In this document: positions 7,632 to 59,611 of the stretch, piece after piece
Numbering within the stretch: position 1 is the first letter of the stretch
Layout: the number at the start of each line of letters is the position of its first letter
From: Stieleria neptunia
GTDB lineage: Bacteria; Planctomycetota; Planctomycetia; Pirellulales; Pirellulaceae
Direction of reading: 5' to 3'
Assembly: GCF_007754155.1 (NCBI RefSeq)
Contig: NZ_CP037423.1
Coordinates: 372,001-436,000 of the forward strand
Length of the DNA stretch: 64,000 nt
Notes under the pieces: model-generated
Databases searched by the model: none
What the model was told of the DNA's origin: nothing
The model's input: only the letters and a program-made list of their open reading frames with translations
Made by a program: the position numbers and the translations under genes

Positions 7632-7639
7632 CCCGCGCC

Positions 7640-7707
7640 GTGAGCCGCGACGCGTAAGCGGCCGGGCCTTTCGGCGTCCGCCCGAGGCCTTACGGCCAGC
7701 GGCTCAC
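7640..7707. repeat. REP-like palindrome, family 1, copy A
   Basis: This imperfect palindrome has arms starting GTGAGCCGC and ending GCGGCTCAC, with inner parts GTAAGCGGCCGGG and CCCGCCCGAGGCCTTAC. It is followed by a conserved tail TTGACTCCGCAGATCCCG to about 7740. Related copies lie at 16597, 57224 and (inverted) 59485. It fills the convergent junction between 7631 and 7830 and may terminate transcription from both sides. Confidence 0.85.
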
Positions 7708-7829
7708 CGTTGACTCCGCAGATCCCGATTCAATTGACACGCCGTGAGCGGGCGACGCGTGTTTGCCCTGGCACGTGCCGTCCCCAGGCGGGCCCCTGGG
7801 GACGAGGCAGTGACAATCCTAAGCGTCGA

Positions 7830-9143
7830 TCACGCGAAGGGGTCGTACTGGCCGGGGACGGGAATCGGGTACTTGCCGTCGGGGCCGGGCAGCGCCGATT
7901 CCGGGGGCGGGGTGTCGATGGTGTAGTCATCGATCCCGGGCGCCAATTCGCGTCCCTTGTTCAGCAGGTCATCCCATTTGATGACCTTGCCGCTGTAACA
8001 CGCTTCGCGGCCCAGGATGGCGGTGAAGGTCGACAACGCGCCGTACTCGCCTTCGTTGTAGATCTCTCCGCGGCCGAGAGCCGCGATCAGATCGTTCTGC
8101 TCTTGCTGGTGGCCTTGTTGACGCTGGCCGCTGAATTTCCAATCGCCGCCTTCACCGGAGATTTGTGATCCGGAGACGTCGGCGGTTCCCTTGGTGCCGT
8201 GGGCGTACTCGGCGACGTGCGTCCAGGAGCCTTTCAGGTGACGGCCTTGGCTGAACATCTTGGTGCCATCGGCGAAGGTGTATTCGCAGAAGGTGTGGTC
8301 AAAGATCTGGCTCTTGGTCGGGTCGCCATCCATTCGCTGCTCGCGTCCGCCCATGCCGTTGCATTCGACGGGGTACTCGCCCTTGAGCCAGCAACCGACG
8401 TCCAGGTTGTGGATGTGTTGCTCGCAGATCTGGTCGCCGGAAAGCCAGTTGAAGTGGTACCAGTTGTTGCACTGGAATGCCATTTCGGTTTGCTCTTCGG
8501 TGCGGTTGCGGTACCAGATGCCGCCGCCGTTCCAATAGACGCGGGTGGCGATCACGTCACCGATCGCGCCGTCGTGGATGCGTCCGATCGTTTCCAGATA
8601 CTGGGCTTCGTGGCGGCGCTGGAGACCGATGCCGACCATCAAGTTTTTCTTCTTGGATTCTTCGACGCTGGCCAAGACGCGTCGGACGCCGGTGGCATCG
8701 GAGGCGACCGGTTTTTCCATGAAGATGTGCTTGCCGGCTTTGACGGCGGCTTCGAATTGTTGCGGTTTGAAACCGGGAGGCGTCGCGATGATGACCAGGT
8801 CGGCGTCGACTTCCAGCAGTTTCTTGTAGGCGTCGAGTCCGACAAACTTGTGCTCGGCCGGCACATCGACCTTGTCCTTGTAACGCTTGGACAGGGAATT
8901 GATGGTGGCCGAGGCCTTGCCGTCAAACGCGTCGGCAACCGCAACCAATTTGACGTTGCCGCCGGATTTGAACATGTTGACCGAGGCACCGTTTCCGCGG
9001 CCGCCACATCCGATCAAAGCGAACTTGATCTCGTCGCTGCCTTGGGCGTGTGCGGTTCGAGCAATCGTGCTGGTCAGGGTCGCGCCGGCGGCAGCGGCAG
9101 TGGAAGTTTTCAAGAAGTTACGTCGGCTAGGATGATTTTCCAT
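7830..9143 (-). CDS. Tat-exported Gfo/Idh/MocA family oxidoreductase
   Basis: The 437-residue protein opens with a Tat signal (PSRRNFLKTSTAAAAGATL, cleavage likely after ARTAHA). The mature part has the Rossmann motif ALIGCGGRGNGASV, then ADLVIIATPPGFKPQQ, GKHIFMEKPVA (the family EKP signature) and a C-terminal beta-sheet domain with CNNWYHFNWLSGDQICEQHIHNLD and NGMGGREQ. Members use a tightly bound NAD(P) to oxidise or isomerise sugar derivatives. The exported planctomycete branch is abundant but biochemically poorly known. It is convergent with the DUF1552 gene. The start is set by the complete Tat signal, with AAGGAT a few bases upstream of the ATG. Confidence 0.92.
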   Translation of the reverse strand: MENHPSRRNFLKTSTAAAAGATLTSTIARTAHAQGSDEIKFALIGCGGRGNGASVNMFKSGGNVKLVAVADAFDGKASATINSLSKRYKDKVDVPAEHKFVGLDAYKKLLEVDADLVIIATPPGFKPQQFEAAVKAGKHIFMEKPVASDATGVRRVLASVEESKKKNLMVGIGLQRRHEAQYLETIGRIHDGAIGDVIATRVYWNGGGIWYRNRTEEQTEMAFQCNNWYHFNWLSGDQICEQHIHNLDVGCWLKGEYPVECNGMGGREQRMDGDPTKSQIFDHTFCEYTFADGTKMFSQGRHLKGSWTHVAEYAHGTKGTADVSGSQISGEGGDWKFSGQRQQGHQQEQNDLIAALGRGEIYNEGEYGALSTFTAILGREACYSGKVIKWDDLLNKGRELAPGIDDYTIDTPPPESALPGPDGKYPIPVPGQYDPFA

Positions 9144-9336
9144 CTGTTTATCCTTTCGGAATGATCAACTCGACGGGCGGCGACGCGACAAGTGCGTCGT
9201 CGGCCGGCGAGTTTTTTGGGAATGGGAATTTGGTGGGCAACAAGATCACGCTGCTGTATTGTAAAGGCAATCGCTTCCCAATTGACTTTGCTTGGACCGT
9301 ATTCTACTAAGGTTTTTTTAAGCCGAGCCGTTTTTT

Positions 9337-9402
9337 CGGCGACAACCGAGACCGGCGCGCAATCGAAACCGGCGACAACCGAGACCGGCGCGCAATCGAA
9401 AC
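9337..9402. repeat. Perfect 33-bp tandem duplication
   Basis: Two adjacent identical 33-base units beginning CGGCGACAACCGAGACCGG (9337-9369 and 9370-9402) are followed by the first nucleotides of a third. They lie in the divergent upstream region of the small gene at 9431, 28 bases before its start codon. The identity of the units points to a recent duplication; effect on expression is unknown. Confidence 0.9.
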
Positions 9403-58452: not shown

Positions 58453-58528
58453 GTCTGGGGGGACGTGCTGCGTGGCCGATCGGAATCGGCCGGCAATGGG
58501 GGGCTTTATCCAGGGAAGGTACGGCCGG

Positions 58529-59440
58529 ATGGCCAAGCAAAGCGAGCAAACCGATCATCGCCCGATCCGCAGCATCCTGCGCCGACTGATTCTGGCGCCG
58601 GCGGCCTGGTCGTTGATTTGGCCGATGCTGTTGTTGATCGGTTCGTACGTCGCCTATTCACGCTGGTACGCCGAGCATTTCGCCCAGGCCTATGGGAGCG
58701 TGGATCCGCAATCGATCACGATTTCCCCGCCCCATCAGTACGTCCGGACCGATTTGGTGGCGGAAGTCTATGACGAAACACGGTTGACGGAGTTGTCGCC
58801 GGTCGATCGCAGCGTGACGGCGAAACTGGCGTCGGCCTTTGCCAGCCACCCCTGGGTCAAACATGTCCATCGCGTTCGAAAGCTGCCGTCGGGCAAGTTC
58901 GAGCTGGACCTGGATTACCGCCAACCGGTGGCGGCGTTCCATGTCACCGGAGGCGAGAAATGGAAACAGATGATCGCCGAGCACCTAAAAAGTCTCGGCT
59001 ATCCGGTCTCGGACGTGAACGGCTATCTGCCGCTCGATGGCGAAGGGATGCTGCTGCCGACCGCCGGTTTGACGTACGACGATGCGATGGAATTGATTCA
59101 CATCGAGGTCTGGGAGCTGTACCCGACCGGCAACGAGGGGACCCCGTTTGGCGACCGCCGCGTGGAGTCGGCGGCGTTGTTGGCCAAGCTGCTCTCGGCC
59201 GTCCGCGATCAAATTCGGATCGCCAAAATCACTGTCAGCGGGGACTCACGTTTAAACCTGGTGCCCCAATTGGAGATCACCACCGGCGACAACACGCACC
59301 TGTTCTGGGGCAGCCCGCCGGGCATGGAGCAACCGCGGGAACGCGACGCGCGGGCGAAGTTGACCGACCTGTTGAGCGGAAACTTCGTCCCCGGCGGAGA
59401 CCTCAGCATCGCCGCCGGAAACTCACCGCCGCTGCGTTAG
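58529..59440 (+). CDS. ftsQ: FtsQ-like single-pass membrane protein with POTRA-type domain
   Basis: The 303-residue protein starts at ATG 58529 after GGAAGG; earlier in-frame GTG/ATG codons at 58472 and 58496 are weaker. A basic stretch precedes one membrane helix (LAPAAWSLIWPMLLLIGSYVAY). The extracytoplasmic part contains the FtsQ-type POTRA pattern LASAFASHPWVKHVHRVRKLPSGKFELDLDYRQPVAAF, then a beta domain. The N-terminal topology, HPWV signature and the neighbouring murB-like gene support FtsQ. FtsQ links septal peptidoglycan synthesis to division. Planctomycetes lack FtsZ, so its role here is an open question. The symbol is used at family level. Confidence 0.78.
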   Translation: MAKQSEQTDHRPIRSILRRLILAPAAWSLIWPMLLLIGSYVAYSRWYAEHFAQAYGSVDPQSITISPPHQYVRTDLVAEVYDETRLTELSPVDRSVTAKLASAFASHPWVKHVHRVRKLPSGKFELDLDYRQPVAAFHVTGGEKWKQMIAEHLKSLGYPVSDVNGYLPLDGEGMLLPTAGLTYDDAMELIHIEVWELYPTGNEGTPFGDRRVESAALLAKLLSAVRDQIRIAKITVSGDSRLNLVPQLEITTGDNTHLFWGSPPGMEQPRERDARAKLTDLLSGNFVPGGDLSIAAGNSPPLR

Positions 59441-59484
59441 AGCTTGGTTCCGGTTCGATTGAGTCGGGATCTGCGGAGTCAATG

Positions 59485-59553
59485 GTGAGCCGCTGGCCGT
59501 AAGGCCTCGGGCGGGCGCCCGCGATGCCCGGCCGCTTACGCGTCGCGGCTCAC
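59485..59553. repeat. REP-like palindrome, family 1, copy D, inverted
   Basis: This copy runs opposite to A-C, with its tail (GGATCTGCGGAGTCAATG) on the left from about 59467. The arms are GTGAGCCGC and GCGGCTCAC. It fills the convergent junction between the ftsQ-like gene (59440) and the reprolysin-like gene (59612). Confidence 0.88.
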
Positions 59554-59611
59554 AGTAACGGCAGACCGCGAGCCGTCCGGTCTAACCCTCGTTTTCAATT
59601 GGAATCAATCG

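Follow-up and report, generated by a model that had tools for sequence, protein, structure and literature searches.

Repetitive extragenic palindromic (REP) elements have been described near the 3′ ends of bacterial genes. According to the available text of a 2006 report (PMC1525189), REPs lie between convergent genes, where insertion was argued to be harmless. The available text of a 2013 survey of GTAG repeats (PMC3733652) places REPs mainly between unidirectional and convergent open reading frames, near 3′ ends, notes that GTAG termini often supply a TAG stop codon, and counts Planctomycetes among the carriers of GTAG REPs. Both the placement at 3′ ends and the donation of stop codons are already published in that survey, which was also the only match with an on-topic title in our literature search on palindromes in Planctomycetes; nothing was found on repetitive extragenic palindromic repeats in Rhodopirellula. 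Here we describe families of palindromic repeats in the planctomycete Stieleria neptunia, starting from a 64,000-nucleotide stretch of DNA (contig NZ_CP037423.1, positions 372,001 to 436,000; the window), which is part of a 10,975,817-base single-contig genome.

Six gaps between convergent genes in the window each hold a long palindrome of one of three families, termed A, B and C, as an earlier note on this DNA had claimed. Each palindrome is an inverted pair of arms, and each arm consists of a short tag and a hairpin:

7640..7707, family B, in convergent gap 7632-7829.
14803..14848, family C, in convergent gap 14765-14844 (sample row L042 9845-10306); the tag on the right serves as stop codon for the gene that ends at 14845.
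19051..19109, family A, in convergent gap 19035-19120; three congeners lack it at the same junction.
37798..37856, family A, in convergent gap 37748-37855; it overlaps a stop codon, that of the gene with its end at 37856, and is T-rich on its right side.
50989..51034, family C, in convergent gap 50993-51040; the TAG stop of gene 48245-50992 lies within its left tag GTAG (50989-50992).
59485..59553, family B, in convergent gap 59441-59611; congener G012 lacks it.

Several other statements of the note hold in part. The palindromes cover from about one third to nearly nine tenths of their gaps. Contact with a neighbouring stop codon is real and occurs at three gene ends (14845, 37856 and 50992) rather than at two. 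A palindrome is present in seven of the nine convergent gaps of the window, not counting a possible tenth gap (55029-55083) that depends on a weak gene call. The two without one are 9797-9814 and 44831-45920; the note had passed over a single family H arm in gap 2093-2324. Families A, B and C are all real, and the genome has at least eight palindromic families in total. A search of the window against Rfam gave no matches at gathering scores.

The window palindromes are REP- or REPIN-type repeats (REPIN, REP doublet forming a hairpin), and the paired ones are units resembling REPINs or bacterial interspersed mosaic elements (BIMEs). We think it likely that they represent several non-autonomous REP families that survive mainly behind gene 3′ ends, where they are tolerated, and that family C tags have come to serve as stop codons. 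REP elements of this sort would be small, non-autonomous repeats of the kind moved by single-strand transposases of the REP-associated tyrosine transposase (RAYT) type. New copies would survive mainly right behind gene 3′ ends, sparing coding sequence and promoters; some copies lie at the very end of a gene, where their tag (GTAG, family C) acts as the stop codon. A convergent gap, with two 3′ ends and no promoter, would accumulate about twice the copies of a tandem gap, while divergent gaps would hold few. Tolerance rather than benefit would be the main reason for this placement.

All arms share a common architecture in which a tag (GTGG, GTAG or GTGA) precedes a hairpin, and most are arranged as inverted pairs with the tags outward. 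In family A, GTGG is followed by GATAGGCT-TCC-AGCCTGTC, in family C GTAG is followed by, for example, GTCACGC-TGT-GCGTGAC, and in family B GTGA is followed by an imperfect stem. A2 (GTGGCGTAAGCTTCCAGCTTGCG) is a sister family of A, and the further families F, H, D and D2 emerged from counts of k-mers and from the window itself. Gap counts leave out family E, which is a repeat of the tandem type and not a palindrome. Genome-wide behaviour was assessed in 100 evenly spaced stretches totalling 2.0 Mb (18% of the genome), using our own gene caller, which misses small genes and places starts roughly, with 3′ ends set by stop codons. Nine repeat patterns matched 14 to 151 arms each in this sample; chance is excluded because the reversed patterns gave only 0 or 1. 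The tag GTGG is carried by 241 of 260 A/A2 arms, GTAG by 66 of 77 C arms and GTGA by 81 of 95 B arms, the last deviating from the GTRG type of tag.

Stem covariation was tabulated for A/A2 and C, and compensatory changes are present in both. Among 67 distinct A/A2 arms, 38 have GC and 24 have AT at pair 9-19, and among 30 distinct C arms, 18 have TA and 12 have GC at pair 6-20. Pairs with outward tags are the commonest paired arrangement (39 of 138 A/A2, 37 of 53 B and 16 of 35 C elements), and the opposite orientation does not appear in the list of the eight most frequent arm patterns. About 632 arms with the A core occur in the whole genome when one mismatch is allowed, and only 4 of the 216 A, A2, B and C elements in the sample lie in predicted genes. 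Tag, covarying stem, inverted pairing and high copy number together uphold the description of these sequences as dispersed REP-type repeats. With respect to miniature inverted-repeat transposable elements, the other class that had been suggested, element-free junctions exist, but their flanks are too divergent to score a target-site duplication.

Placement of the repeats is explained mainly by gene 3′ ends rather than by convergence. Apart from the four in genes and one at the end of a stretch, the 216 elements lie in convergent (79), tandem (109) and divergent (23) gaps. When all eight palindrome families are considered, they occupy 106 of the 192 gaps between convergent genes, 130 of the 751 tandem ones and 31 of the 184 divergent ones. 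For gaps of at least 30 bp, leaving out the sample stretch that overlaps the window, the corresponding values are 103 of 163, 127 of 534 and 30 of 180, and odds ratios stratified by gap length for convergent occupancy are 5.64 versus tandem and 11.28 versus divergent gaps. The expected enrichment at convergent over divergent junctions was therefore found, and palindromes do occupy most convergent gaps when all eight families are counted, although A plus A2, B and C alone occupy only 70 of the 163. Convergent gaps look packed because each has two gene 3′ ends. Per 3′ end, the ratio of convergent to tandem occupancy in gaps of 100-1000 bp is 1.13 (bootstrap 0.87-1.45). Elements in tandem gaps are closer to the upstream stop than to the downstream start in 114 of 146 cases, and repeat density drops beyond about 150 bp from the stop. 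The crowding at convergent gaps is largely ordinary, and the kind of element involved is already known.

Many arms reach the stop codon itself. An arm of one of seven families lies between -30 and +300 nt of 324 of the 1162 complete gene ends, and the closest arm presents its tag to the gene in 287 of these and its tail in 37, an excess that is expected because pairs have their tags pointing outward. Arms within 10 nt of the stop make up 24 of 39 for C, 27 of 70 for A and 18 of 41 for A2, the last without arms that lie further than 6 nt into the gene (19 when counted up to -6). In 11 of the 39 C cases that face the gene tag-first, the TAG of the tag is the stop codon. This puts 11 of 32 near C arms at the same offset out of 61 (Bonferroni p ~1e-10, tested against a uniform null). 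The two C elements in convergent gaps of the window each provide a stop in this way, for the genes ending at 14845 and 50992, and at two sampled junctions (L103 and L040) a tag forms the end of both flanking genes. One gene at each of these two junctions was compared in our genome and nine of thirteen congeners. In our genome and in congeners G001, G002, G005, G012 and G013 the gene ends in TAG with a whole or, judged by eye, decayed C element behind it, and in G003, G004, G007 and G008 it ends in TGA or TAA with no C element. This split fits donation of the stop codon by the insert.

IS200/IS605 insertion sequences (IS) insert beside short target sites, and the GTAG of family C could likewise be a pre-existing target, a gene end in GTAG beside which the hairpin inserted, instead of a donated stop. 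GTAG is a common gene end (144 of 1162), and the available text of one study presents a guide-sequence model for the IS200/IS605 insertion site (PMC8266576). We nevertheless judge a pre-existing target improbable, given that the six genomes with C sequence at L103 and L040 have TAG where the four other fetched congeners have TGA or TAA, and that a single target site would not leave the genes on both sides ending in the tag.

Copy number is specific to lineage. Arms with the A core, again with one mismatch allowed, number 632 in our genome, 598, 306, 159, 64 and 57 in five congeners, and 0-7 in eight. Family C has 138 copies in our genome, 214 in G002, 161 in G005, 127 in G012, 54 in G003, and 25, 18, 7 and 5 in four others, with none in five congeners. 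Family B has 300 copies in our genome, 151 in G002, 118 in G005, 74 in G003, 8 in G012 and 1 in G004, with none in eight. Rhodopirellula sp. SM50, Stieleria sedimenti and Planctomycetes bacterium TBK1r are close relatives, each with a 98% identical copy of one window protein.

Orthologous junctions, compared for part of the window, are found both with and without repeats. At 19034/19121 family A is present only in our genome; the stops are 7 bp apart in G005, and the predicted partner overlaps the stop by 15 bp in G002 and G012. At 37747/37856 family A is shared with G005; G002 has no repeat after the stop, with the partner gene 4.2 kb away, and the region in G012 lacks collinearity. Family C is present at 50992/51041 in our genome, G002 and G005 (the last with three distal arms) and missing from the 15 bp gap of G012, while G001 and G013 carry a palindrome that by eye is different. 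Family B at 59440/59612 is shared with G002 and G005 and missing from the 47 bp gap of G012. C arms at 14764/14845 are shared with G002; G005 has one arm in a 537 bp gap, and the genes are 4.6 kb apart in G012. Junction 7631/7830 has no orthologous junction in the comparison set. The repeats are mobile and dispensable in congeners because some of the same junctions are empty and A counts range from 0 to 632 arms. At element-free orthologous junctions the gene pairs stay intact, and they presumably work normally as well.

Several observations weigh against the explanation favored here. One is that the convergent to tandem ratio per 3′ end exceeds 1 once shorter gaps are included, reaching 1.33 (1.02-1.73) from 60 bp and 1.38 (1.08-1.80) from 30 bp, a rise that would be explained by short tandem gaps often lying inside operons. 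Family H is the most biased to convergent gaps (24 of 41 elements).

A second is that T-rich tails of paired A elements are far above background, which bears on the proposal in the earlier note that the repeats were domesticated as bidirectional terminators, with the hairpin forming in either transcript and stopping polymerase from both sides of a convergent junction. Occupancy of convergent gaps far above that of divergent gaps agrees with this proposal, as do the predicted stems of paired A arms (about -46 to -51 kcal/mol). At least five T in eight nucleotides are found in 37 of 234 A/A2 flanks, against 128 of 4764 in the background, and A/A2 pairs with a T-rich flank make up 12 of 19 in convergent, 9 of 26 in tandem and 4 of 6 in divergent gaps. 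However, no such flank was found for B (0/62), C (0/48), H (0/72), F (0/72) or D2 (0/38) in the sequence directly beside the matched arms, with B, H, D2 and, less so, F being conserved further outward. An intrinsic bidirectional terminator would have a T-tract on both sides of its hairpin. In the 13 convergent two-arm A/A2 pairs listed, a recurring T-rich tail like TTATTTTCCG is usually on one side, as judged by eye, and termination would therefore act one way. In single A arms, T runs are confined to the tag side (11 of 66, versus 0 of 66 on the tail side); a terminator would need them on the other side of a sense-oriented arm, which counts against termination. Hairpin-plus-T signals are no different in convergent flanks with repeats (11 of 212) and without (5 of 120), and in tandem flanks the values are 12 of 111 and 23 of 208. 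Moreover, congeners keep some of the same gene pairs repeat-free, with stops 7 to 47 bp apart or overlapping. Domestication as bidirectional terminators is therefore improbable, and a terminator role is not supported in general, given the 3′-end placement in tandem gaps, the lack of an adjacent T-tract in five of the six families tested and the empty junctions of relatives. Some paired A elements may terminate transcription, mainly one way.

A third concerns orientation. Single A/A2 arms near a stop are sense-oriented by 44 to 10 (28 to 5 for tandem gaps, 16 to 5 for convergent ones), and this bias speaks against plain tolerance because tolerance alone does not predict orientation. Single sense arms may be remnants of pairs that kept the stop-proximal arm. 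It is also conceivable, though we would not favor it, that stop-proximal arms act on the mRNA, with the hairpin slowing ribosomes or shielding the 3′ end from exonucleases, and that selection keeps both the arm and its sense orientation. Liang and colleagues reportedly described, in 2015, ribosome stalling at REPs near stops in E. coli. The orientation bias and the frequent position of C and A/A2 arms within 10 nt of a stop would suit such a role, and some congeners retain only the stop-proximal C arm, the sole arm matched at L103 in G001 and G005 and at L040 in G013. Stabilization of mRNA by REPs is an old proposal, as the available text of the 2013 survey relates (PMC3733652). Conversely, only a distal C arm was matched at L040 in G012, and the sense bias could stem from the insertion reaction or from pair decay. 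An action on mRNA would be compatible with survival of tolerated copies behind 3′ ends. A broader version seems doubtful to us, in which several unrelated REP families share the post-stop niche, selection keeps the stop-proximal sense arm, and the repeats would be, in this genus, routine 3′-end parts of many genes that provide a stop codon and a 3′ hairpin and, for paired A, a T-rich tail ending transcripts.

A fourth concerns the mobilizing enzyme. By analogy with known REPs, families A, B and C would be moved by a RAYT-type enzyme, for which genes matching Y1_Tnp are the candidates. None of the eight Y1_Tnp genes of our genome has an A, B or C repeat within 1.5 kb, and none was seen at the 27 congener loci examined, of 83 matches; no RAYT gene flanked by the same repeat was thus found for A, B or C in these loci. 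Such linkage is present for two other families. Family D repeats lie on both sides of the Y1_Tnp gene at L034 (G000:C1:8956318-8956665), and family H arms lie on both sides of a weak, partial Y1_Tnp match at L038 (G000:C1:10888875-10892090). The Y1_Tnp gene at L033 is flanked by a third type of hairpin, with GTAGCC. Single arms showed no consistent strand bias by replichore of the kind that lagging-strand insertion would leave. Separately, congener G003 (G003:C1) has 27 Y1_Tnp matches, versus 1 to 8 in the other thirteen genomes searched, our own included.

Further palindromic elements of the window, including the family H arm in a convergent gap, are as follows:

2195..2219, minus strand, one family H arm between convergent genes (gap 2093-2324).
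10906..11038, in a tandem gap, a family C pair (10950-11004) with an A-like arm on either side.
16601..16668, in a tandem gap, a family B pair with 6 mismatches in one of its arms.
20449-20526, family D2, a 26-bp perfect inverted repeat in a divergent gap; missing from the same gap in three congeners.
31211-31233, 31370-31392 and 43172-43194, palindromes of family D (AAAAAGGTGTCGGACACCTTTTT), all in tandem gaps; a direct duplication contains the first two.
46707..46729, minus strand, single family A arm in a tandem gap; it overlaps gene 46721-48103 at its 3′ end.
57224..57291, in a tandem gap, an inverted pair of family B; at this place two congeners carry family F and a third has none.

Intergenic DNA of the sample stretches (L039-L138) also contains abundant tandem repeats of type GGCAGAATGATGGGG and other repeat families.

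These findings add a densely populated planctomycete case to REP biology, and they replace the notion of terminators at convergent junctions with the simpler rule that copies collect per gene 3′ end. With A arms ranging from 0 to 632 and the same junctions found with and without repeats, the genus is a good natural system for studying whether REPs near stops have any effect on the host.

Like intrinsic bidirectional terminators, the repeats place a GC-rich hairpin between convergent genes, and many A pairs have a T-rich tail; unlike such terminators, the other tested families lack an adjacent T-tract, and the elements occur in many copies, are mobile and are lacking at some orthologous junctions. 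They share with the REPINs of Pseudomonas fluorescens SBW25, as presented in the available text of PMC3116915, an inverted REP pair as the unit, hundreds of copies and several sequence families in one genome. The SBW25 sequences are different, and their doublets are described there as random in extragenic space, in contrast to the 3′-end-bound placement seen here. Compared with the GTAG super-family in the available text of PMC3733652, families A and B differ in their tags (GTGG and GTGA) and no linked RAYT-type gene was found for A, B or C in the loci examined. The likeness to these GTAG REPs and BIMEs nonetheless extends to the tag followed by a hairpin, dimers with outward tags, multiple families per genome, sites at gene 3′ ends and the use of TAG as a stop codon.

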